This document shows positions 8,390 to 19,870 of a stretch of 60,623 nt of DNA, piece after piece. The stretch lies in NCBI RefSeq assembly GCF_013362815.1, contig NZ_JABFVK010000053.1, forward strand, positions 1 to 60,623. The letters are read 5' to 3'. The DNA is from Hamadaea sp. Lineage in GTDB: Bacteria; Actinomycetota; Actinomycetes; Mycobacteriales; Micromonosporaceae. A model generated the notes under the pieces. That model saw only the letters and a program-made list of their open reading frames with translations. It searched no databases and was not told the DNA's origin. The translations under genes were made by a program, and so were the position numbers. Position 1 is the stretch's first letter. Every line of letters begins with the position of its first letter.

Positions 8390-8589
8390 GCCAGAAAGCT
8401 AGCAGAAAGATGATCGAGAGTGCGACATCTACCGGCGATTTATGTCAGATGGTTGGCTCAGCGTCGGCTTTTCGGCCGAGCAGGGTTACCATACCGGCAT
8501 CCTGCGGCCGGGGGCGGCTCTCGCGGGGCGGGCGCCTGCCGGCCGGGTGGCGTCGATGCGCAGACACGACAACCGGAGGGGCGGCGGTC

Positions 8590-9564
8590 ATGTTGGGGAG
8601 GTTGCGCAGCAGGCGATTCGACGCACCGACGTCCGATGAGGACGGTAGTGGCGCGGTCAGCCGGGGACAGGTGAACGACATCGTCGTCAACCTCGCGCGG
8701 CGCAGTCAATCGTTGGTGGAACGGCAACTCAAGGTGGTCGAAGAGCTCGAACGCGACGAACGGGACCCCGAACGTCTGGCCGCGCTGTTCCGGCTGGAGC
8801 GGCTGACCGCCCGGATGCGGCGGACGAACGAGAACCTCCTCGTCCTCGCGGGCGGGTCGGCCCGACGTCGCAGCCGTGAACCCGTGCCGCTGGCCGCCCT
8901 GGTGCTCGCCGCCGTCTCGGAGAACGAGCAGTATCAACGGGTTCGGGCCGAGGTCGAGGACGGCGTACAGGTCTCCGGGGTGGTCGCGGCCGACCTGGTC
9001 CACCTGCTGGCCGAGTTGCTGGAGAACGCGGTCGGCTACTCACCGCCGACCAGCGTGGTCACCGTGACCGGCGAACGGACCGCGCCGGGTGCCCGGGTGA
9101 TCGTCACTGATCAGGGCATCGGGATGCGGGACGAGGTCAGAGACGAGCTGAACCAGCTGCTCGCCGATCCACCCGAGGTCGACGCCTCGGTCACCGAACG
9201 CATGGGGCTGGTGGTCATCGGCCACCTCGCGGCACGGCACGATCTGCGGGTGACCCTCGCGGCGGCGGCCGGCGGCGTACGCGCCACCGTCGAGCTGCCG
9301 GAGGCCGTCCTGGAGCCCCGCAAGCGCGACCGCACAGCGGCTGTCCGGCTCACCACCACCGAGCCGTTCGACGCCGAACCGACCATGCGCCTGCCCATGG
9401 GCGAGCCGGTCGAGGAGCACACCATTCTGCTGCCCTCCCGGGTGCCGATGGCCAGCCTGCCGCCGTCGACCGGGGAGCCGGAGGGCCCGGCGAAGCCGGT
9501 GGCCGCCGACCCCGCCACCGAGCGGGTGCTCACCCGGCTCTACGACGGGCTGCGCGAGAACTAA
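8590..9564 (+). CDS. CvnA-like histidine-kinase-type ATPase without sensor or phosphoacceptor His
   Basis: 324 residues. Conservon CvnA proteins are normally membrane sensors about twice this size; this one starts directly in the helical dimerisation part (QVNDIVVNLARRSQSLVERQL). The segment usually carrying His reads LFRLERLTARMRR, with Arg-71 at that place. The ATPase fold keeps an N box (ELLENAVGYSPP), G1 (DQGIGM) and G2 (MGLVVIGHLAARH). A variable acidic/proline tail follows from about residue 240. Start 8590 has GGAGGGG upstream. The roadblock gene follows after 16 bp. It probably acts as a nucleotide-dependent scaffold rather than a kinase (inference). Confidence 0.8.
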   Translation: MLGRLRSRRFDAPTSDEDGSGAVSRGQVNDIVVNLARRSQSLVERQLKVVEELERDERDPERLAALFRLERLTARMRRTNENLLVLAGGSARRRSREPVPLAALVLAAVSENEQYQRVRAEVEDGVQVSGVVAADLVHLLAELLENAVGYSPPTSVVTVTGERTAPGARVIVTDQGIGMRDEVRDELNQLLADPPEVDASVTERMGLVVIGHLAARHDLRVTLAAAAGGVRATVELPEAVLEPRKRDRTAAVRLTTTEPFDAEPTMRLPMGEPVEEHTILLPSRVPMASLPPSTGEPEGPAKPVAADPATERVLTRLYDGLREN

Positions 9565-9580
9565 CCGATCGGAGCGATTC

Positions 9581-10003
9581 ATGGTGGTCGACACGTTGAG
9601 CCCGTCGGCCCAGCGGCTGCACTGGCTCATCAGCGGATTCGTCGACCGGACCGCGGGTGTCGCGCACGCCGCCGTGGTCTCGGCCGACGGGCTGCCGCTG
9701 GTCGCCGCGCAATCGCTGGCGCACGACCGCGCGCTGGAGCTCGCCGCGATCACGGCCGGCCTCCACAGCATCGCGCGGGGTGCGGCTGAGCTCACCCTGT
9801 CGTGCGGCGTCTCTCAGACGGTCGTCGAGATGGACCGCGGTTATCTGCTCATCATGTCGGTGAGCGAGTCGGCCGTGCTGGTAGTGCTCGCCGTGCGGGC
9901 GGCCGACCTCGGCGTCATCGGCTTCGAGATGGTGCGCCTGGTCAAGGCGGCGGGCGACCTGCTGACCCCACAGCTGCGCGACGAGCTCGGGGCCACCTGG
10001 TAA
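9581..10003 (+). CDS. Roadblock/LC7 domain protein (CvnB-like)
   Basis: 140 residues, one roadblock/LC7 domain spanning almost all the protein (GFVDRTAGVAHAAVVSADGLP ... GVIGFEMVRLVKAAGDLL is its recognisable course). In conservons CvnB pairs with CvnA and regulates a small GTPase, CvnD. Here the usual CvnC and CvnD genes are missing and the next gene faces the other way. Ribosome site GGAGCG precedes the ATG. Confidence 0.85.
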   Translation: MVVDTLSPSAQRLHWLISGFVDRTAGVAHAAVVSADGLPLVAAQSLAHDRALELAAITAGLHSIARGAAELTLSCGVSQTVVEMDRGYLLIMSVSESAVLVVLAVRAADLGVIGFEMVRLVKAAGDLLTPQLRDELGATW

Positions 10004-10038
10004 GCCAGGCTCGGCGGCGGCCGAGATCAGCCTGGCTT
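10002..10038. terminator. Bidirectional terminator overlapping both stops
   Basis: AAGCCAGGCT (10002-10011) pairs perfectly with AGCCTGGCTT (10029-10038), with an inner TCGG/CCGA. The hairpin begins inside the roadblock stop codon and contains the last codons of the facing kinase-like gene, serving both. Confidence 0.75.
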
Positions 10039-11292
10039 GTCGGCCTTCTCGACGTCGTCGGCGGCGGCGCGCAACGCCGTCGCCCGGACGCTCGTGATGT
10101 CGTTGGTCCGCTCGGCGAGGGCCACCCGATTGCGGAAAGCCTGGAGCTTGCCGGTGATGCGCTTGCCCAACTGCACATCGATCAGCATGTCGCCGACTTG
10201 CGCGTCCAGCTTCTGAGCCAGATCCGCCGTGATCTCGCCGAGCGAGCGGCCGGCCGTGACGCTGTCGCGCAACGCTCCCAGCGCGGTCTTGACCGCCGCG
10301 GGGTCGGTGATCGTCGAGGTCGTAGGGGTCGGCGATCCGCCCGGCCCGGTAGTGCTCACGCCCGGCGTGGTCGGGGCAGCCGAAGTAGACGGCCGGGGAG
10401 ACTCGACGCCGGTGGGCGCTTCCGATCGAGCGCTGCTACGCGGCGTCGAACCGGGTGTGTTCCCGGCCGTCTCGATCGGCTCGCTGCCGACGGGCAGCAG
10501 AGAAGGCAGTGCGCCCGCAGTCACTCCGCCCACGCCGGCGGCCACGACGGCTCCCGCGAGGCCGACCGCGGCGAGCCCGACCCGGCGGCGATTGGGAGCG
10601 TACCGGGGACGGACGACCAGGGCTGGCGAGGTCGTCAGAGCGGCGAACGCCGCCGCCAGATCCGCCGCGCTCTCGCCGACCCGACCCGCTCGTGCGCACA
10701 CCGCCGCCAGCGGGGCCGGTACCTCGCGCACGCACGACTCGACCAGTATGCCGAGCGCGTTGACGTCGTCGAATTCGCTGGCCGCCTCGGTATGCCAGCC
10801 GAGCTGAGCGGAACCCACAACGCCCAGCAGCACGGCGCCGGTGGCGGTCAGCACGACGTTGCCTGCGTCGACCTCGCCGTGGGTCAGACCGCGGTGGTGC
10901 AGCGCCGTGATCGCCTGCCCGATCTGGCCGCCGATCTGCGCCGCTTCCGCCGGGGTCAGCGTCTCGCCCGTCAGCCGGTCGCCGAGCAGCTCGCCTTCGA
11001 TGAGGCTCAGCACGACGAACGGGGTGGGCGCGCCGTCGCCGGAGAAGGCCTCGCCCACGTCGAGCACGCCGACCAGATGCGGATGGCTGACCCGGGCGGC
11101 GGCCCGGGCTCGCGCCCGCAACGCGATGAGGCTGTGCTCGTCCCCGGCGGCGGACGGGAAGAACTTGACCGCGACCGGGCGGCCCAGCACGTCGTCGAAG
11201 GCCGACCAGATCTGCGCACCAGGCGACGCCGCTAGACGCTCCACGAGGAGGTAACGGCCTGCTACTGGGGTACCCGCGGCGAACCCGAGCAT
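10027..11292 (-). CDS. Serine/threonine kinase-like membrane protein, probable pseudokinase
   Basis: 421 residues. The kinase-like domain (about 10-260) keeps the ATP-lysine (Lys-43 in VAVKFFP), but the catalytic loop HRDVKPxN is replaced by HGEVDAGN (His-138 onward) and no DFG is visible (GVVGS occupies that position). One membrane helix (about 285-310) leads to a Ser/Thr/Pro-rich outer linker and a C-terminal helical domain of about 90 residues. It is last of a five-gene leftward operon. The start at 11292 is chosen because the fold begins with AGRYLLVERLA; its ribosome site is weak. Signalling or scaffold role is inference. Confidence 0.75.
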   Translation of the reverse strand: MLGFAAGTPVAGRYLLVERLAASPGAQIWSAFDDVLGRPVAVKFFPSAAGDEHSLIALRARARAAARVSHPHLVGVLDVGEAFSGDGAPTPFVVLSLIEGELLGDRLTGETLTPAEAAQIGGQIGQAITALHHRGLTHGEVDAGNVVLTATGAVLLGVVGSAQLGWHTEAASEFDDVNALGILVESCVREVPAPLAAVCARAGRVGESAADLAAAFAALTTSPALVVRPRYAPNRRRVGLAAVGLAGAVVAAGVGGVTAGALPSLLPVGSEPIETAGNTPGSTPRSSARSEAPTGVESPRPSTSAAPTTPGVSTTGPGGSPTPTTSTITDPAAVKTALGALRDSVTAGRSLGEITADLAQKLDAQVGDMLIDVQLGKRITGKLQAFRNRVALAERTNDITSVRATALRAAADDVEKADKPG

Positions 11293-11306
11293 GAGGGGAG
11301 TCTGCC

Positions 11307-13577
11307 TTATCCTCGCCGATGCCACCGCAGTGGCCCCGGATGAATGGACCAGATGAGCCGCCGCCACCACGAACGGCGGGCGCGAAGCTCCCCGACGTAC
11401 GCCGTGGCGCTGGCGCGAGCCCGGTGGGCGTCGTCTTCCGCCAGCCGTCCCGCACTGAACTCGGCCGCGTTGACCAGCCCGGCGAGGTCGTCGAGCCGGG
11501 GAGCCGGCAGCCGCACGTGTTTGCGGCCCGGTGGTGCGGCCGCCTCCCCGGCGAAGGCAACCACCTCCGCCGCGGTCAGATGTCGGGGACTGCCCTGCCC
11601 GGCCAGCCGCAACGCGTCGGAGACCTCGAGCCAAGCGCCGGCCACCCGATCGGCCGGGCTGCCCTCGTCGAGCCGTCGTCGGCGCAGACCCCGGCGGGCG
11701 ATCAGCAGCGTCAGCACCGAACCGACCAGGATCAGGACGACGAGCCCACCCGCGCCCGCGCCGACCATCGGCACCACCGATCCGGCCGCTGCCGCCGATC
11801 CGCTTGCACCGGACCGCGCCGCCGCCGAGGCAGACACCGACTCGGTGGGCAGCGGCTCCTGCGTCGGCGGCTCGGTCGACGGCTCCGGCTTGGGCTTGAA
11901 CTGCTCCTCCAGCGGTTCAGGCTGCTGACCCGGGCGGGGCAGTGGATCGAACGCAACCCAGCCCACGCCCGCGAACAGGACCTCCGGCCAGGCGTACGCG
12001 TCGGAGGCGAGCACCTGGGCGGCGCCCTTCTTGGCGTGGAACCCGACGACCACCCGGGCGGGCAGGCCCATCATGCGGGCGAGAACGGCGTACGCCGCGG
12101 CGAACTGCTCCGCAGTGCCCTTCCCGCCGCCGTAGCCCGTCTTGTCGCCGAACAGGAAGTAGTCGAGGTTGGGCAGGGCATGGCCGCTCGGCGCCCCGCT
12201 GTCGAGGCGGTAGTGGGTCGCCAGGAACTGCTCGATCGCCGAGGCTCGGGCGTAAGCCGCGGAGTTGTCGGCGGACAGGCGCTGGGCGAGCTGCTGCATC
12301 CGCTCCGGCAGGGTGCCGCTGCCGACGGCCAGGTATCGGCTGACCTCCGGTCCGGTCGGCACGTCCGCCATGGGCAGGGTGTTCTCGTCCGGCACCGTCT
12401 GCACCGACGTCACGGCGTACGACATGCCTGGCGTGAGGCCGGTGGGCAGCATGAGCGTGCCGCTGTCGACGTCGATGCTGACCCGCAGGCCGTCCACGCG
12501 GCGAGCGCTGGCGACCGCGGGCAGGAGTTTGCCGGCGAGCCCGACCACCGTGATCTCCTGGGAGATGGTGGCGTCCTTCGCGACGGCCTGCTCCGCCCCG
12601 GGCGCGGCGGCCGGGGGAGCGGGCGGCGACGGCAGCGTACGCGCGGCGGGCCGATAGTCCCCGGAGACGTGCCAGGTCACCCCGTCGTAGTCGGGCAGCA
12701 CCGCGAGCCGGATCGCGCTGTCGGCGCTGAGGTTGGTGTCGAGCAGGTGCTCGGTCGGGTTGACCGCCCAGCCGGAGAGCCGAATCAGCGGATTCTGGTC
12801 GAGCGCGTCGAGCTGGGGCGGCGTCACGTATGCACGCGGATCCACCGGCGGCTTGTCGACTACGCCGGCCAGACCCGGCCCGAGCAGCGCCGCGACGGCC
12901 ACGATGACGGTGACTCCGGCGAGCGCGGCGACGGCGGCCCGGACCTGCAACGCGCGCCGGGTGACGGCGTCGACCCGGTCGGTCCGCACCGGATCGGGCG
13001 CGGCGGCCCGGGCGGCGCTGGTGCCGGTCAGGGCGAGGGCGGCGATGGCCAGTCCGCCGAAGACGATCCCGGTGGCCGGCCCGCCCCGATGGGGTCCGAC
13101 CAGGAACAACGCGCCGCCGTAGAGCAGCGTCGGCGGCAGCAGGCTCAGCAGCGTCCGGCGGGCACGGCCGGCCAGTTCGGCGGAGGTGAGCCCGGCGAGC
13201 CAGGCTGCGATGACCGGAATGACGACGGTGTCGGGCTGCGGCGCGACCGGCACGAGCGCGGTCAGCAGCCGGGGTATGCCGTTGGCCACGGCGTCGGCGG
13301 CGACGTCGGGCAGGCTGCCGGGGACGTCGGCCTGCTGGGCGGACAGCCACACCGCCAGGGCCAGATAGCCGGCCAGCCCGAGCACCGACACCGGCGCGTC
13401 GATCCACGAAGGCAGGCGGCGTACCGCCACGGAGAGCAGGACGCTGGCGACGCCGGCCCCGGCGACCAACTGGAACAGCAGCGGACCGTCGTAGATCTCG
13501 CCGAGCGTCCAGCCCGCCAGGACGATCATCCCGGCCAGCACCACCGGTACGCCGAGTGCGCGGACCAGCCTCACCAT
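11307..13577 (-). CDS. TgpA-like membrane protein (DUF3488 plus transglutaminase-like fold)
   Basis: 756 residues. About six or seven N-terminal membrane helices (residues 1-235) precede an outer transglutaminase-like domain, a linker rich in Pro, Glu, Ser and Ala, a further helix (about 590-612) and a cytoplasmic tail. In the core, GKGTAEQFAAAYAVLARMMG has Ala-489 where active family members have Cys, and SDAYAWPEVLF has Tyr-528 where His is expected, so transglutaminase or protease activity is unlikely. The ATG at 13577 lies just before the stop of the DUF58 gene (7-nt overlap) with GGGAGGGGG upstream. MoxR-DUF58-TgpA sets are common; this protein is probably their membrane platform. Confidence 0.85.
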   Translation of the reverse strand: MVRLVRALGVPVVLAGMIVLAGWTLGEIYDGPLLFQLVAGAGVASVLLSVAVRRLPSWIDAPVSVLGLAGYLALAVWLSAQQADVPGSLPDVAADAVANGIPRLLTALVPVAPQPDTVVIPVIAAWLAGLTSAELAGRARRTLLSLLPPTLLYGGALFLVGPHRGGPATGIVFGGLAIAALALTGTSAARAAAPDPVRTDRVDAVTRRALQVRAAVAALAGVTVIVAVAALLGPGLAGVVDKPPVDPRAYVTPPQLDALDQNPLIRLSGWAVNPTEHLLDTNLSADSAIRLAVLPDYDGVTWHVSGDYRPAARTLPSPPAPPAAAPGAEQAVAKDATISQEITVVGLAGKLLPAVASARRVDGLRVSIDVDSGTLMLPTGLTPGMSYAVTSVQTVPDENTLPMADVPTGPEVSRYLAVGSGTLPERMQQLAQRLSADNSAAYARASAIEQFLATHYRLDSGAPSGHALPNLDYFLFGDKTGYGGGKGTAEQFAAAYAVLARMMGLPARVVVGFHAKKGAAQVLASDAYAWPEVLFAGVGWVAFDPLPRPGQQPEPLEEQFKPKPEPSTEPPTQEPLPTESVSASAAARSGASGSAAAAGSVVPMVGAGAGGLVVLILVGSVLTLLIARRGLRRRRLDEGSPADRVAGAWLEVSDALRLAGQGSPRHLTAAEVVAFAGEAAAPPGRKHVRLPAPRLDDLAGLVNAAEFSAGRLAEDDAHRARASATAYVGELRARRSWWRRLIWSIHPGPLRWHRRG

Positions 13578-14812
13578 CGGCCGACCCCCTCCCACTCGGC
13601 GGCGAACTCGACGCCGTCCTCGGCCCGCAGGAAGAGCATCCCGGCTCCGCCCGGCTGAGGCTCGTCCGGCGTGATCGGGCCGAGGATGCCGGTGACCACG
13701 GTGGGGAAGGCCCCCCGGAGCGCTCCGACGAGCCCGAGATCGGCGACACCGCCCGTGCCGGTCAGGTAGACGAGCGTGTCACCGGGGCGGTGCTGACGCA
13801 GCCGGTTGGCGGCGTTGGCGAGCCGACTGTCCACAGTGTCTGCCGCATCGGCGGTAGCCGACGGAGTGACCTCGGCGAGCGCGTCGAGCTGCGCCTGAGC
13901 GCTGCCGCGATGCCCGGCGACGGCCCGGCCGCCGACGGTGTGCAGGACGACCGGAAGGTCCTCGCGGACCGCCGCCGCGATCACCGACGCGGCCGCCTCG
14001 CACGCCGCCTCGAACGCGGCGATCTCGCCGTCGGGCAGCGCGGGGGCGGCGTACGACCCGGACCGGTCGTCCAGCAGCACGACGATGCGAGGCAGGCTGG
14101 TGTCGAGGTGCTCGCGGACCATCAGCTCGCCGACCTTCGCGCTGGTACGCCAATGCACGTGCCGCAGCTCGTCGCCGATGACGTATTCGCGCAGCGCGTC
14201 GAAGGTGATGCTGCCGTGCGGCACCCGGTCGATGCGGCCGTCCATGCTCCGGCTGACCCCCGCCGGGACCGCCTGGAGCGGATGGATGCGCGGATGCACC
14301 CAGATCGAGGCCGAGCCGCCGTGGTCGCGGCCCAGCGACAGCAGGCCCAGGGGATCGCGCCGGGTCACCCGCAACGGGCCGACCTGGATGACTCCCCGCC
14401 GCCCGGTCGGCACCGGATAGCCGACGTCCATGGTCGCCCCGGCCCGCAGGCGCAGCACCGGGACGGCTACGGCGACCTTGTCGTGCACGGTCTGCCCGTC
14501 TCCGCTCAGCCGGCCGCAGGAGTCCTCGGCGACCAGACTGGCCGCCAGCAGCCGGCTGGTGTTGCGTACGGTCAGAATCACGTGGCTGCCCTCGCCACGG
14601 CCGACCCGATCGGGGTCGACCGAACGGGCCACCTCCAGTCGCGGCCGCCACACGCCGTAGGCCAGCGCGCAGCCGATCGCGACGAACGCCGTCGCGCCCA
14701 CGACCACCAGTTCGGGATAGCCGAACCGGATTCCGGTCAGGGCCAGCAGCACCCCGCCGACGCCCAGGCCCAAGCCCCGCGGCGTGATCGGCAGGCGAGC
14801 CGCGAACCTCAT
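13571..14812 (-). CDS. DUF58 protein (vWA-like)
   Basis: 413 residues. Two N-terminal membrane helices (about 13-55) are followed by a beta-rich region and the DUF58 core near YVIGDELRHVHWRTSAKVGELMVREH, then a von Willebrand factor A-like fold (IVVLLDDRSGS gives a degenerate metal-site D-x-S). DUF58 proteins act with MoxR ATPases in assembling or activating membrane or surface proteins. The start overlaps the MoxR stop by ATGA (14812-14809), so translation is coupled. Confidence 0.88.
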   Translation of the reverse strand: MRFAARLPITPRGLGLGVGGVLLALTGIRFGYPELVVVGATAFVAIGCALAYGVWRPRLEVARSVDPDRVGRGEGSHVILTVRNTSRLLAASLVAEDSCGRLSGDGQTVHDKVAVAVPVLRLRAGATMDVGYPVPTGRRGVIQVGPLRVTRRDPLGLLSLGRDHGGSASIWVHPRIHPLQAVPAGVSRSMDGRIDRVPHGSITFDALREYVIGDELRHVHWRTSAKVGELMVREHLDTSLPRIVVLLDDRSGSYAAPALPDGEIAAFEAACEAAASVIAAAVREDLPVVLHTVGGRAVAGHRGSAQAQLDALAEVTPSATADAADTVDSRLANAANRLRQHRPGDTLVYLTGTGGVADLGLVGALRGAFPTVVTGILGPITPDEPQPGGAGMLFLRAEDGVEFAAEWEGVGRW

Positions 14813-15804
14813 CGGGACCGCGTGTCAGCCTGACCGGGCAACGGCACCGGCACCGACTCGATCGCGTCCTGAAGCACCTCGGCTGCCGTCACCCCACGCA
14901 GCTGCGCGTCCGCAGTCAGCAGGATGCGGTGGGCGAACACCGGCTCCACGAGCGCCTTGAAGTCCTCGGGCAGCACGAAGCCCCGGCCCTCGGTCAAGGC
15001 GTACGCCGCGGCCGCGCGGGTCAGCGCGATCACGCCGCGGGGACTGACCCCGACGCGGACGTGCTTGTGCTCCCGGGTGGCGGCGGCCAGCCGCACGGCG
15101 TACGCGTAGAGCGGATCGGCCGTGTGCACCCGCTGGGCCAGCCGGATCGCCTCGGCGATGGTGTCGGTGGTGCAGATCGGCTCGATGGCCTCCGGCGAGC
15201 GGAGGTTGGCCCCGCGCAGCACCTCGATCTCGACCAGCTCGCTGGGGTAGCCGACGGACAGCTTCATGAGGAACCGGTCGAGCTGAGCCTCCGGCAGCCG
15301 ATAGGTGCCGTCCATCTCGACCGGGTTCTGCGTGGCCACCACCAGGAACGGGCGCGGCACCGCGTGGCGTACGCCGTCGACGGTGACCGTGCGCTCCTCC
15401 ATGACCTCCAGCAGCGCCGACTGCGTCTTCGGCGAGGCGCGGTTGATCTCGTCGGCGATCACGATGTTGGCGAAGATCGGGCCCGGGTGGAACTCGAACC
15501 CGCGTGTCGCCTGGTTGAAGATCGTCACACCGGTGACGTCCGAGGGCAGCAGGTCGGGCGTGAACTGAACGCGCCGCCACTGCCCCTGCACGGCGCTGGC
15601 CATGGCCCGGGCCAGCGTCGTCTTGCCGACGCCGGGCACGTCCTCCAGCAGCACGTGCCCCTGCGCGAACAGGCAGATCAGCCCTAGCCGCACCACCTCG
15701 GGCTTGCCGAGGACCACCGTCCCGACGGCTCCGGTGAGCCGGGCCGACAGGTCGGCGAAGGCGGTGACCTGTGCGGGGGTCAGCGGCGGCTGGGGCTGAT
15801 TCAC
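14809..15804 (-). CDS. MoxR-family AAA ATPase
   Basis: 331 residues. Walker A is EDVPGVGKTTLA, Walker B is IVIADEINRASPKTQ, and sensor 1 is ATQNPVEMDGTY. These are chaperone-like ATPases that remodel client proteins, often vWA-domain partners. It follows the Fn3 surface-protein gene by 49 bp and is coupled to DUF58. Confidence 0.93.
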   Translation of the reverse strand: MNQPQPPLTPAQVTAFADLSARLTGAVGTVVLGKPEVVRLGLICLFAQGHVLLEDVPGVGKTTLARAMASAVQGQWRRVQFTPDLLPSDVTGVTIFNQATRGFEFHPGPIFANIVIADEINRASPKTQSALLEVMEERTVTVDGVRHAVPRPFLVVATQNPVEMDGTYRLPEAQLDRFLMKLSVGYPSELVEIEVLRGANLRSPEAIEPICTTDTIAEAIRLAQRVHTADPLYAYAVRLAAATREHKHVRVGVSPRGVIALTRAAAAYALTEGRGFVLPEDFKALVEPVFAHRILLTADAQLRGVTAAEVLQDAIESVPVPLPGQADTRSR

Positions 15805-15853
15805 GTCGTCCCTCGTGTGTCGTAGTGCTTGTCGTAGCGGTCGTGGTCAGGCG

Positions 15854-18427
15854 TCAACAGGACGGCAGATTGCTGAAGTCTGACTCGGAGATGTCGGTGT
15901 ACGCGATCGGGATGTAATACGGATCGTTGACCATGACCCAGTTCGAGCTGCGCTTGTTGTTGTTCTCCCCGGCGGCGTAGATGCTGTCGCCGGAGGCCCC
16001 GCAGACGGGGTTCACCGAGGTGCCGTCGCGGTGGTAGACGCCGTTGTCGCAGCAGCCGTTGTCCTGCCGGAGGTAGATCGAGCCGCCGTCGTCCTTGTAC
16101 TCGTAGATGCCCTCGGAGCAGCCGTTGCACTGCGCGGTGGCGGACATCTTCAGCGTCCGGGTCGTCCCGGTCGCGGTGTAGGAGCCGGCGGCGTTGCTGA
16201 CCACCAGGGTCCACGAGTACGCCTTGTCGGCCCGGTTCACCCCGACGGAGAGCTTGGTGCCGTTGGCGCAGGAGGTGTCGGTCGCCGCGGCCTGCCCGGA
16301 GACGGTCAGCTTGCAGGTGACGGCGTCACCGGTGAACGTCGCGGCGACGGCCACCGCCGAGTACGTGGCGCTGGCGTTCTCTGCGCTGCGTACCGGGGCG
16401 GCGAGGGTCTTCGCCGTCGTCTTCGCGGCCGGGCCGACGCCCGCCTCGTTGACCGCGACCACGGAGACCTGAACGGTGGCCCCGTCGGCCAGCCCGTTCC
16501 AGGTCAGGCTCAGTCCCGTCGTGGACTTCGTGGTGCCGTTGACCGTCACCTGGTACTCGGTGATCGGGCGGCCGTTGTCCGACCCGGGCGTCCAGCTCAC
16601 CTTGATGGTGCCCTTGGCGCTGGTCACCGTGGCCGCCGACAGGCTCTTCACGGCGGCCGGCTTGGTGAAGGGGACGACCGTGTTGCTGACCACCGACGCC
16701 TTCGAGGCGACGCCGATGTCGTTCACGGTGATCACGGTGAACGTGTACTGGGTGCCGTACTCGAGGTCGCCCGCCTTGATGGTCAGGGCGTTCGTCGTGG
16801 CGGTGCCGATCGGCGCGTTGGATCCGCTGGACACCGCCGTCACCTCGTAGCGGGCGATGGTGTGACCCTGGCCGTTGGCCTTGTCCCAGGTGACCGCCAC
16901 GGTGCCGTCCGGCTTCTCGACCGCCTTGACGGTGAGCGGAGGATCGGGAACCTCGAAACTCGGCGTCACGGTGTTGCTCGTACGCTTCGGCCCGGAGCCC
17001 TTGGCGTTGACCGCCCACACCGTGAAGCTGTACTTCTGCCCGTTCGTCAACCCGGTGATCACCAGCGACCGCTGGTCGGCCCCGACCTCGAAGGTCTGCC
17101 CGTTGCCCTCCACGACGTACTTGAGGACGGGCGAGCCGTTCTCCGGCGCCCGGCCCCAGGTGACCCGGGCCTGCGTGTTGCCCGCGACCGCCTTGAGGTT
17201 CTTGACCGCGCCCGGCTTGCCGACCGGCGGCGTGGGCGGCGGAGGCGGCGGCAGCTTCGGCGGGTCGCCGCCGAGGACGTCGTTGACGAACTTGTCGACG
17301 ATCTTCACGTTGCCGTTGTCGTCGACGACTCGCGCCGACGCGGCGTTCGGGGCATTGATGAACAGCCGGTTCTCCCGGACCTCCAGGTCGATCGGCCCGT
17401 TGGCCTCCTTGAAGGCGATGGTGTCGAGCAGCTTGCCGTCGCGGTCGAGGACGTAGATCGCGCCGTTGGTCTCATCGGCGATGTAGAAGCGGCCCGACCA
17501 GGCGACGGCGGGCTTGAGCTTCGCACCGGCCCCCGGCACGGTGAAGTCGCTGACCTTCTCGCCCGCGACGACGAAGACGTGCCGGCCGTCGACCACCGTC
17601 ACGGGGACGTCGGGACCGTTGGTCCGGCCCGGCAGCGATCCGGTGCCCTGGAGATCGAGGCCGACCTGGCGCTGGTGCTCGTCGATCACCGTGGTCAGCT
17701 TGCCGTTGGTGCGGTCGAGGACGGCGACGCCACTGTCGAGAGTGGAGACGACGAGGTCGTGGCTCCGGTCGGCGACGGTCACCGTCTTCACCCGGGTCGG
17801 GGAGGCGGCTCCGCCCGCGCCGCCCGCCGACGGCAGCGGCCCGGTCGGCTCGATCGCGGCGATCGTCCCCTCCTCGGGGATGGCGATCCAGAGCCGGCCC
17901 TTGCCGTCGAACGTGCCGCCCGTGATGCCCGGCGGGAAGTGGATGGGCTCGCCGATGCCGGCCAGCGTCCGGGGGTCGATCTGGCGTACGACACCTTGCG
18001 CCGGGTCGATGAGGAACGCGGCGTCGCCGTTGAGCGCAACCGTCACACCGAGGCCGGAGGTGCTCGCCGCGGTGCCCGAGGACTGCAACGTCGCGAGGTC
18101 GAAGGCGTTGAGCTTGCCCGTGTTGACGTCGCGCAGCACGAGGTAGCGGTCGGTCTGGCTGACCTGCATCGTGTGACCCGCGGTGTTCGGCACGCCCATC
18201 CGGGTGTCGACCCGGCCGGTCACGCCGTTGACCCGGGCCATCTCGCCCTTGAGCGAGCTCCACAGCCACGAACTAGAGTCGTAGTTCGCCGCCGCGTGGT
18301 CCTTGGCCCCCAGCCCGAACCACGTCAACGCCACCCCTGCGACCAGGGCCAGTACCGTCGCGATCGTGACGATGCCGCCCTTGGTGCGGGCACGTCGTCC
18401 GATGGCGCCGGGTGACAGATCGACCAT
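15854..18427 (-). CDS. Membrane-anchored propeller/fibronectin III surface protein
   Basis: 857 residues. A short cytoplasmic N-terminus and one membrane helix (about 18-40) are followed by a probable beta-propeller (about 50-395; repeated units such as DVNTGKLNAFDL and DETNGAIYVLDRDGK), a polyproline linker, three fibronectin III domains (about 412-695), an Ig-like segment and a Cys-rich tail with CNGC and CC pairs ending in SC. The start at 18427 has GGGGAGGG upstream. It heads the operon with MoxR, DUF58, TgpA-like and kinase-like genes and is the obvious client of that machinery (inference). The ligand is unknown. Confidence 0.85.
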   Translation of the reverse strand: MVDLSPGAIGRRARTKGGIVTIATVLALVAGVALTWFGLGAKDHAAANYDSSSWLWSSLKGEMARVNGVTGRVDTRMGVPNTAGHTMQVSQTDRYLVLRDVNTGKLNAFDLATLQSSGTAASTSGLGVTVALNGDAAFLIDPAQGVVRQIDPRTLAGIGEPIHFPPGITGGTFDGKGRLWIAIPEEGTIAAIEPTGPLPSAGGAGGAASPTRVKTVTVADRSHDLVVSTLDSGVAVLDRTNGKLTTVIDEHQRQVGLDLQGTGSLPGRTNGPDVPVTVVDGRHVFVVAGEKVSDFTVPGAGAKLKPAVAWSGRFYIADETNGAIYVLDRDGKLLDTIAFKEANGPIDLEVRENRLFINAPNAASARVVDDNGNVKIVDKFVNDVLGGDPPKLPPPPPPTPPVGKPGAVKNLKAVAGNTQARVTWGRAPENGSPVLKYVVEGNGQTFEVGADQRSLVITGLTNGQKYSFTVWAVNAKGSGPKRTSNTVTPSFEVPDPPLTVKAVEKPDGTVAVTWDKANGQGHTIARYEVTAVSSGSNAPIGTATTNALTIKAGDLEYGTQYTFTVITVNDIGVASKASVVSNTVVPFTKPAAVKSLSAATVTSAKGTIKVSWTPGSDNGRPITEYQVTVNGTTKSTTGLSLTWNGLADGATVQVSVVAVNEAGVGPAAKTTAKTLAAPVRSAENASATYSAVAVAATFTGDAVTCKLTVSGQAAATDTSCANGTKLSVGVNRADKAYSWTLVVSNAAGSYTATGTTRTLKMSATAQCNGCSEGIYEYKDDGGSIYLRQDNGCCDNGVYHRDGTSVNPVCGASGDSIYAAGENNNKRSSNWVMVNDPYYIPIAYTDISESDFSNLPSC

Positions 18428-18502
18428 GGTTCGCCCTCCCCATTCGCGAGCCGGCACAGCCGGCTGCGCTCGTCACGGCGTTCCTCCCTGAAGCCGGACG
18501 TC

Positions 18503-18531
18503 ATCATAGGTCCCACGGCCGACATCGAAAA
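18503..18531 (-). promoter_or_regulatory. Promoter of the Fn3-MoxR-TgpA operon
   Basis: On the minus strand TTTTCG (18531-18526), 17 bp, then TATGAT (18508-18503), a near-consensus -10. It leaves a leader of about 70 nt before the Fn3 gene. Confidence 0.5.
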
Positions 18532-18604
18532 GGCGCGGTTGTCCGGCTGTGGACAATGTCGCCCCTCCTGACCGAAGGTTCCGGAGGACGGTGCGAACCG
18601 CTGC

Positions 18605-19870
18605 TCAGCTGGCCTTGGCGCTACTGCGCGTCGTGCATACGGGAGTCGATTCGTAGATCTCCGAGCCGGAGTAAATCGTCACGACGCTGAAACAATAGGC
18701 GAACTTGGCATTGAGTCCGGTGATCGTGAAAGTGGGCTTCGCGCCGAGGTTGCCGGTGACGAGCTTCATCGTGTCCCGGCTCGCGCCCATCTTCACGGCG
18801 AATCCGGCCGAACCGCCGGCGGGATCGGTCCACCGCAGCGTGATGGAGTCGCCCCGGTCGCTGATCGTCAGGTTGGTGGCCGGGCCGCGCGCGGCCTGCG
18901 ACTGCTGCTGCGACTCCGCCGTCTGCGGACCCGGGCCGGTCGGATCAGCGCCCCGGTTCAGCATCAGGACCACCACGACACCGGCGGCGACCACCGCGAC
19001 GAGGGCGGCGGCGACCGCTGCCACCATCGCGCCCCGGCCGCGCTTCTCCACGATGACCGACGGGGTGGCCGTGAACACCTGCGACGGCTGGACCATCGGC
19101 ACCGGCGGCGGCGCGATCGGTTCCCGGACGGCGATTTCGTCGCGCGGCGATTCGGCGTACCGGACGGGGCCGCTGAGCGACGGCAGCGGCGCGTGCTGCA
19201 CCGGGGCGGGCAGCATCTCGGTCCGCTCCACGAGCGCGGCTCCGGGCCCCTGATCGGCCCGCGCCGGGCTGTTCTGCGGCAACGCCGGGTGGGGTCCGGC
19301 CGACACCGCAGGTCCGGTCGGCACGGCGGGTCCGGTCGGCACGGCGAGAACGCCGGGTGCCGGGCTGTGCGGCTGGGCGTACGCCGGACTCGGCGGCGTC
19401 TGCGGGCCGAGCCAGGTGACCGCTTCGCGTACCTGGTCCTGGAGTCCTTCGACGCCGACGCCGTGGGCCGCCACCCGGCCGTAGTGCTTACGCGCCTCGT
19501 GCTTGTTGCCCAGCTGGTCGGCGACGCTCGCGAGCTCGAAGCTGATCCGGAGCAGCACCGGTTCCGACGCGTCGAGGCGCAATGAACCGGCCTGCAACGC
19601 CTCCTCGAGTACGCGCCGAGCCGTGGACAGGTCGGCGGCCCGCCGATGCAACGTCGCCAGGAGGAGTGCCGTGGCCAGAATGTCCGGATGATCCTCCCCG
19701 TACTGGAAAGTGGCGCTGTCGAGGCTGTCCTCCAGCAGCATTCGGGCCGAGGCGAGGTCGCCTCGGTCGCGCAGGGCACGGGCCTGCGCCCAGACTTCGG
19801 GTAGGTGAGTCGGCTGCGGCACGCGTACATGCTGCCGCGTCGGCGCGATATTCACCAGCCCGTCGTCCAC
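18605..19870 (-). CDS. TPR protein with membrane helix and outer Fn3-like domain
   Basis: 421 residues. An N-terminal tetratricopeptide region (about 22-160; ARALRDRGDLASARMLLEDSL, GEDHPDILATALLLATLHRRAADL) is followed by a Pro/Ala linker with repeated VPTGPAV units, a membrane helix (about 280-303) and a C-terminal fibronectin III-like domain (about 330-415) with two Cys. It lies upstream of and parallel to the Fn3 operon, shares its cytoplasm-helix-Fn3 build, and may belong to the same surface system. The GTG start at 19870 has no clear ribosome site; another GTG lies five codons later. Confidence 0.65.
   Translation of the reverse strand: MDDGLVNIAPTRQHVRVPQPTHLPEVWAQARALRDRGDLASARMLLEDSLDSATFQYGEDHPDILATALLLATLHRRAADLSTARRVLEEALQAGSLRLDASEPVLLRISFELASVADQLGNKHEARKHYGRVAAHGVGVEGLQDQVREAVTWLGPQTPPSPAYAQPHSPAPGVLAVPTGPAVPTGPAVSAGPHPALPQNSPARADQGPGAALVERTEMLPAPVQHAPLPSLSGPVRYAESPRDEIAVREPIAPPPVPMVQPSQVFTATPSVIVEKRGRGAMVAAVAAALVAVVAAGVVVVLMLNRGADPTGPGPQTAESQQQSQAARGPATNLTISDRGDSITLRWTDPAGGSAGFAVKMGASRDTMKLVTGNLGAKPTFTITGLNAKFAYCFSVVTIYSGSEIYESTPVCTTRSSAKAS

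Follow-up and report, generated by a model that had tools for sequence, protein, structure and literature searches.

What a membrane protein with a transglutaminase fold does once the residues of its active site are gone is the question raised by an operon in a window of 60,623 nucleotides from Hamadaea sp. (Micromonosporaceae; assembly GCF_013362815.1, contig NZ_JABFVK010000053.1, positions 1 to 60,623), the window being the whole stretch of DNA analysed. Six genes of the minus strand (10027-19870) encode, in the direction of reading, a TPR-transmembrane-Fn3 protein, a surface protein with a propeller and Fn3 domains, a MoxR-type ATPase, a DUF58 protein, a TgpA-like protein and a kinase-like protein. 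The first-pass annotation had described the last five (10027-18457), all of which are present, and had proposed that the TgpA-like and kinase-like members are two pseudoenzymes serving as scaffolds of an assembly or export platform for the Fn3/propeller protein. The observation is correct; the dead-TgpA half of the idea generalises well beyond the window, while the two-pseudoenzyme half is local. Our reading, to which we give a probability of about one half and which rests on sequence comparison, is that this surface-protein operon would belong to a branch of MoxR-DUF58-TgpA sets in which transglutaminase or cysteine-hydrolase chemistry was abandoned a single time, early on, the genes being maintained ever since as a machine without enzymatic activity.

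We focused our attention on the TgpA-like gene (11307-13595, minus strand), which encodes a polytopic membrane protein of 762 residues if translation begins at GTG 13595, or of 756 residues from ATG 13577. By hydropathy, it has seven N-terminal hydrophobic segments and one more at residues 615-633, and its transglutaminase-fold core (residues 434-551; 11943-12296) was matched by the Pfam family Transglut_core (PF01841) with 68 bits (1e-18). MoxR and DUF58 genes directly upstream are typical of the TgpA family, and the window gene has both. The catalytic Cys-His-Asp/Glu triad, on the other hand, is not there: its three columns read Ala, Tyr and Asp, with Ala495 (codon 12111-12113) at the position of the cysteine and Tyr534 (codon 11994-11996) at that of the histidine. 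Both were placed by alignment with relatives and with the solved Pseudomonas aeruginosa TgpA domain (6g49, E 7.9e-4), the sole transglutaminase-like Protein Data Bank (PDB) sequence matched, and both codons were checked; the Ala-489 and Tyr-528 reported earlier are the same residues counted from the ATG, and are thereby upheld. Moreover, no cysteine occurs in the 762 residues, a feature of 23 of the 60 orthologous proteins in the family. With alanine in the cysteine column, no histidine and no cysteine, the sequence, to the extent that it can tell, excludes a mechanism based on Cys. The TgpA_N family found no match in this protein, and scored 54.9 and 76.9 bits (cut-off 30) in its orthologues from genomes G061 and G039. 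TgpA_N matches above the cut-off were present in all 61 family genomes searched; the best such protein of the window genome (contig C99), the only copy whose residues were read, has Cys-His-Asp intact, which indicates that this genome retained a catalytic version elsewhere.

To see how far the loss reaches, we used the window TgpA as query for loci across the family (121 genomes) and the phylum (197), and a cysteine-less TgpA from another family as query across the class (246). As the loci were chosen by similarity to cysteine-less proteins, the sample is rich in them: the cysteine column was readable in all 140 loci fetched, with cysteine in 34 and without it in 106. A same-strand DUF58 gene was called in 106/106 of the cysteine-less loci and a MoxR gene in 101 of them. 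In the 60 orthologous loci of the family (L033-L092, window included), cysteine and histidine are both replaced without exception, the former by Ser (56), Ala (3) or Thr (1), and the latter by Leu (19), Tyr (10), Phe (10), Val (9), Gln (4), Ile (3), Ser (2), Met (2) or Thr (1); the histidine is retained in 19 of the 46 cysteine-less loci outside this set. Cysteine-less TgpA proteins extend over several families and, going by kinship labels, over more than one class within the phylum. The loss of the catalytic residues seems old and common to a whole branch of cassettes.

We then related the state of the cysteine column to the gene next to MoxR, using 135 loci; five were left out because a gene call was missing or doubled (L053, cysteine-less; L107, L130, L165 and L166, with cysteine). 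FN3 or BIG domains are encoded directly upstream of MoxR in 84 cysteine-less loci and not in 21, and in none of the loci with cysteine, 30 of which entered the table. Trees of MoxR plus DUF58, which exclude the trait's own columns and are quick, unrooted and without bootstrap, placed the cysteine state as one change when 94 of the 135 loci were used, the family having been thinned (Shimodaira-Hasegawa-like approximate likelihood ratio test, SH-aLRT, 96), and again as one change on a 78-locus mixture-model tree from which long, oddly composed and near-identical rows had been removed (SH-aLRT 99). FN3/BIG presence took seven changes on the 94-locus tree. Cysteine is taken as the ancestral state on the basis of the known chemistry of the superfamily.

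It could be argued that the set is an ordinary MoxR-DUF58-TgpA transglutaminase or peptidase, in which the substitutions are tolerated and another nucleophile, such as serine, does the chemistry. The fold is still recognised by Pfam, serine stands at the cysteine site in 56 of the 60 family loci, and the histidine persists in the 19 cysteine-less loci mentioned above; in addition, the triad columns of one distant locus (L155, 6156-8738) read Ser-His-Glu, a possible serine version. The window protein itself has alanine at that site, no histidine and no cysteine anywhere, and the histidine is missing from 60/60 family loci. Moreover, the intact Cys-His-Glu/Asp type lies on the opposite side of a single tree branch, and the sole intact locus with Pfam-typed neighbours (L129) stands head-to-head with mraZ, rsmH, a 162-residue gene and a penicillin-binding protein (PBP) gene. 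On balance, we consider continued chemistry by another nucleophile very unlikely. As an observation in its own right, the intact MoxR-DUF58-TgpA set of L129 (11200-15128) beside mraZ, rsmH and PBP hints that the catalytic branch may serve division; several further intact loci have runs of genes similar to it in size, sizes being all that was compared, and the intact set of the window genome (L105) does not.

The kinase-like gene (10027-11292, minus strand, 421 residues) was given its start at ATG 11292, past the tgpA stop, the list of open reading frames opening the frame at 11634. Its product scored 26.3 bits with Pkinase, below the cut-off of 31.7, and 24.2 with PK_Tyr_Ser-Thr, slightly above the cut-off of 23.1; among PDB entries it is best matched by PknA and PknB, over residues 6-162. 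Hydrophobic segments were found at 146-164 and 238-256, the second of which is taken as transmembrane by hydropathy, giving a shortened kinase domain, a transmembrane helix, a Ser/Thr/Pro-rich linker and a C-terminal domain; as about 75 residues separate the kinase match from the helix, an estimate from the sequence, there would be too little room for a usual C-lobe. In the window and in G061, the beta-3 lysine (Lys43) is kept, the alphaC glutamate is replaced by arginine, HRD by HGE (10873-10881) and DFG by VVG (GVVG, 10813-10824), and the G039 protein shows Arg, HGE and GLVG. The first-pass statement that HGE replaces HRD and that DFG is missing thus holds, as the PknA alignment pairs HRD with HGE and DFG with VVG, and the codons were checked. 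Since the beta-3 lysine is kept, this pseudokinase may still bind nucleotide.

The kinase adjoins tgpA in 4/4 genomes of the genus examined (the G080 copy being split over two contigs), and HGE is conserved in the three aligned orthologues. Within the family, only 3 of 60 loci, all of this genus, have it immediately after tgpA in the same orientation; at one further locus (L081), a same-strand kinase with HGA and DFG lies one called gene further away. Lys, HRD and DFG are intact in 43 of the 50 kinase genes of the fetched loci; six are degraded, namely the three of the genus, that of L081 (HGA), that of L106 (Arg, HLD, GHA) and one of two in L170 (HLD, GFG), and one (L149) is cut by the end of the stretch. 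As these kinases were sought by similarity, with four intact kinases and the window kinase as queries, badly decayed ones may have been missed. A two-pseudoenzyme platform as a general arrangement is therefore not borne out. A comparison of the substituted positions had been proposed as a check: those of TgpA lack Cys and His throughout the family loci, while a dead kinase at this place seems particular to one genus, scattered parallels aside. In the family loci the gene order recurs up to tgpA, with the kinase as fifth gene in those three only. Of 13 other kinase places listed for the window genome, 12 are intact, DYG being found in one of these; the remaining place (L182, 321-1958, on contig C13) is degraded, its motif columns reading HGN and DAR, and is a second degenerate kinase of this genome.

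With both active sites degenerate, the TgpA-like and kinase genes could be decaying remnants without function, and the kinase does have the lowest amino-acid identity to G061 of the six genes (79%, against 84-98% for the others). Nevertheless, the frames are open and in the same place in the four genomes of the genus examined, HGE is kept in all aligned sequences, and cysteine-less TgpA is spread over several families and, by label, more than one class. Ratios of nonsynonymous to synonymous substitution rates (dN/dS) between the window and G061 are 0.04-0.24 across the six genes; the low values for tgpA (0.12) and the kinase (0.20, and 0.15 within residues 1-165) argue against decay. The comparison with G039, which is more distant, is less informative: the ratio is 0.35 for tgpA (dS 0.67) and reaches 0.63 for the kinase (dS 0.91), a value that would fit decay, so that selection on the kinase is indicated for the close pair only. 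Overall, decay seems to us an unlikely explanation.

The surface protein (15854-18457, minus strand, 867 residues) is built of an N-terminal transmembrane anchor (29-47), an NHL-type beta-propeller (about 50-400), three Pfam fn3 domains and a cysteine-containing C-terminal domain. A profile of the N-terminal part from 17 loci matched NHL propellers, best 6d69 (1.2e-10), followed by TRIM2 (about 1e-9) and the PknD sensor 1rwi (7.7e-5). The last 100 or so residues (15854-16200) carry conserved cysteines, and give the impression of a distinct, small beta domain, perhaps of SH3 type. The coupling of MoxR-DUF58-TgpA to an Fn3 surface protein, as first described, is borne out: FN3, MoxR, DUF58 and TgpA genes are directly adjacent in 53 of the 60 family loci, the other seven comprising four at contig ends, two with a split tgpA call and L062, without FN3. 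Upstream of the surface-protein gene, at a distance of 147 bp, lies the gene of the TPR-transmembrane-Fn3 protein (18605-19870, minus strand, 421 residues), in which TPR_12 exceeds its Pfam cut-off, fn3 falls slightly short of its own (23.2 bits, cut-off 25), and one helix is predicted at 286-304 by hydropathy. As this gene stands immediately ahead of the FN3-MoxR-DUF58-TgpA run in 37 of the 60 family loci, it is probably a sixth member and the first gene of the operon.

Several points weigh against the proposed non-enzymatic branch. The choice of loci was biased, as noted, by similarity to cysteine-less proteins, and because the cysteine state changed only once, its link with FN3 is unreplicated. 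Moreover, an FN3/BIG gene immediately preceding MoxR is missing from 21 of the 105 tabulated cysteine-less loci: four lack MoxR and have FN3 immediately before DUF58 (L093, L094, L095 and L097), three are near contig ends (L050, L051 and L087, the last with an untyped 244-residue gene ahead of MoxR), and 14 are exceptions. The architecture of the client also varies by family, and elsewhere it is an Ig/Fn3 protein of about 2000 residues and not an NHL-propeller/Fn3 protein; the earlier notion of an Fn3 client thus stands insofar as FN3/BIG domains lie beside MoxR in 84 cysteine-less loci, but not as one conserved protein. The higher dN/dS values against G039 count on the same side, as does the lack of conservation at a possible metal site of DUF58.

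That DUF58 protein (13571-14812, minus strand, 413 residues), which we take to be vWA-like, has a hydrophobic segment at 36-54 near its N-terminus and a Pfam DUF58 match of 28.4 bits (cut-off 23.4). A conserved metal ion-dependent adhesion site was considered for it and rejected, as conservation was absent in both the Cys and the cysteine-less branches. The MoxR gene (14809-15804, minus strand, 331 residues) encodes an AAA+ ATPase with AAA_3 (7.9e-64) and AAA_lid_2 domains. It overlaps the DUF58 gene by 4 bp, DUF58 overlaps tgpA by 25 bp (7 bp if tgpA starts at ATG 13577), and gaps of 14 bp and 49 bp separate tgpA from the kinase and the surface-protein gene from MoxR, in line with the overlaps and very short gaps described before. 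The MoxR protein also exceeds the cut-off of bpMoxR (36.8 bits, cut-off 27), and a propeller gene adjoins it, as would be expected of a MoxR-vWA-beta-propeller ternary conflict system. This explanation strikes us as extremely improbable, since AAA_3 scores far higher (213.9 bits), the propeller sits on a membrane-anchored Fn3 protein, and the Pfam hits of the propeller and DUF58 proteins include no partner family of that system. As to the surroundings, a histidine-kinase-like ATPase gene and a Roadblock gene (8410-10003), a pair presumably reminiscent of a conservon, converge with the operon, the Roadblock gene ending 23 bp before the stop of the kinase gene. Neighbouring genes for ABC transporters, CorC, PhoH and lipase were judged unrelated to the clusters.

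Taking these features together, the following arrangement may be proposed. The TgpA-like protein would span the membrane and offer its extracytoplasmic transglutaminase fold for binding the propeller/Fn3 protein or the wall anchor of that protein, with no cleavage or cross-linking; DUF58 would connect its cytoplasmic face to MoxR, and MoxR would spend ATP to load, release or remodel the complex during export and settling of the surface protein. A Ser/Thr kinase of the genus, either inherited from such clusters or recruited, would persist as a transmembrane pseudokinase, most likely working as a receptor or docking subunit.

The same components may also be viewed as a sensing system, in which an external ligand is detected by the propeller/Fn3 protein together with the pseudokinase and relayed by MoxR-DUF58-TgpA, as proposed for the bifidobacterial PFNA operon, described in passages of PMC8430577 as one of host-signal recognition. 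The resemblance of the propeller to the PknD sensor domain, among others, fits this, and in relatives the set is accompanied by genes for kinase, PP2C and FHA proteins: in several other families, cysteine-less cassettes run from an Ig/Fn3 gene (about 2000 residues) through MoxR, DUF58 and TgpA, often followed by RDD/FHA, PP2C, FHA and kinase genes, with the kinase upstream instead in some. The domains of these cassettes were assigned by Pfam for L141, whose surface protein has Big_9 and fn3, and for single genes of L108 and L146, and by similarity for the rest. In the window's own family, however, a similarity search with few queries matched no PP2C or FHA gene across the 60 stretches, of which 12 hold any kinase; for the 19.8-kb stretch of L033, the called genes were compared with the PP2C and FHA examples from L141, a search by few sequences in place of a gene-by-gene Pfam scan, and none matched. 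That the family loci keep the remaining genes nonetheless favours assembly as the central task; furthermore, the window kinase lacks catalytic residues. Sensing as the main task is a serious rival that appears rather unlikely, although less so than the alternatives discussed above.

Within the branch of proposed non-enzymatic sets, one offshoot deserves attention. The window genome carries, on contig C12 (L093, 31983-51558), an FN3-DUF58-dead TgpA set without MoxR, which is also found in G061, G039 and G036 (L094, L095 and L097). An EccD-like gene lies upstream of FN3 in the four MoxR-less loci fetched, L094 having been matched to L093 only; that of G039 scored 29.9 against a Pfam cut-off of 30, and across the family this EccD-like protein was matched in 10 of 61 genomes, six weakly. 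In G039 (L095, L191) the set lies within an ESX locus, where EccD is accompanied by YukD, EccB, two WXG100 proteins and an S8 subtilase, adjoining an FtsK/SpoIIIE protein that was matched in three stretches, while no further ESX genes were seen among the partly typed neighbours of the other three loci. We would tentatively suggest, as a possibility, that the branch consists of membrane pseudoenzymes chaperoning or anchoring giant Fn3/Ig proteins with MoxR ATP, and that in this offshoot an EccD-like protein took the place of MoxR and the set became tied to type VII secretion. A type VII link of the window's own cluster was rejected, the three typed genes upstream of the TPR-Fn3 gene being ABC-transporter parts. 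Convergent to the paralogous cluster, a 2040-residue protein (L093, 63-6182) gave sub-cut-off matches to papain-fold toxin 1 and to the CdiA C-terminal tRNase.

If the branch is indeed non-catalytic, models of the operon would move from cross-linking or proteolysis to binding, with the Fn3/Ig client offering a direct test, and a catalytic branch set beside a dead, surface-protein-tied one would make a natural comparison for MoxR-DUF58 function. Proteins of the branch will probably be mistaken for transglutaminases because of their name, as the PFNA tgm product is in print, to go by passages of PMC8430577. Titles, abstract openings and passages of mostly non-subscription literature yielded no published description of a cysteine-less TgpA branch.

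Among known systems, intact Actinomycetota sets (L129, and C99/L105 of the window genome) share the three genes and their order, but with Cys-His-Glu/Asp, a strong TgpA_N in the two typed, and no Fn3/Ig gene directly upstream of MoxR. The P. aeruginosa genes PA2875 and PA2874 presumably encode MoxR and DUF58 proteins. Co-transcribed with them is tgpA (PA2873), whose product resembles the window protein in its outward-facing transglutaminase domain, and differs in keeping the catalytic triad and a demonstrated transglutaminase activity, as given in passages of PMC3507681, whereas the window protein has neither the Cys nor the His.

The operon also resembles a reduced version of the Bifidobacterium PFNA cluster. 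That cluster reads pkb2-fn3-aaa-atp-duf58-tgm, with prpC and fha in certain species, according to passages of PMC6803598 and PMC8430577. In both, the gene of an Fn3 surface protein precedes those of MoxR, DUF58 and a TgpA-like polytopic protein, in this order, and a kinase is part of the set. Two primer patterns and a 16S probe (0 of 394 genomes) located no Bifidobacterium locus for a direct sequence comparison, although one pattern included a stop codon that may be peculiar to the primer, so that the genus may still be represented among the genomes. The PFNA kinase is the first gene, and is reported as functional and as phosphorylating MoxR, whereas that of the window is the last, without the HRD aspartate or DFG; and where some PFNA clusters have prpC and fha, the window stretch gave no PP2C or FHA match. 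The PFNA surface protein, of about 210 kDa, is described with two Fn3 domains in a passage of PMC12607495, while ours joins a propeller to three. PFNA has in turn been likened to the mycobacterial moxR operon, and the relation between MoxR and DUF58 is called unclarified in mycobacteria, both in passages of PMC12067865.

Regarding the kinase, the actinobacterial pseudokinases ActPs1-3, some with an MviN domain, share degenerate motifs and, in ActPs2 and many ActPs3, a transmembrane helix after the kinase domain, as described in passages of PMC12599244. By that description, ActPs1 has all three catalytic residues substituted; the window protein keeps its beta-3 lysine and so falls outside it, and differs from all three in that lysine, in its PknA/PknB match over about 160 residues and in its MoxR-DUF58-TgpA operon. 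Finally, the window MoxR-DUF58 pair is comparable to RavA-ViaA, covered in a passage of PMC12067865, and to NorQ-NorD, in which a MoxR ATPase likewise has a vWA partner; unlike those pairs, it has as neighbours a surface protein and a dead TgpA.

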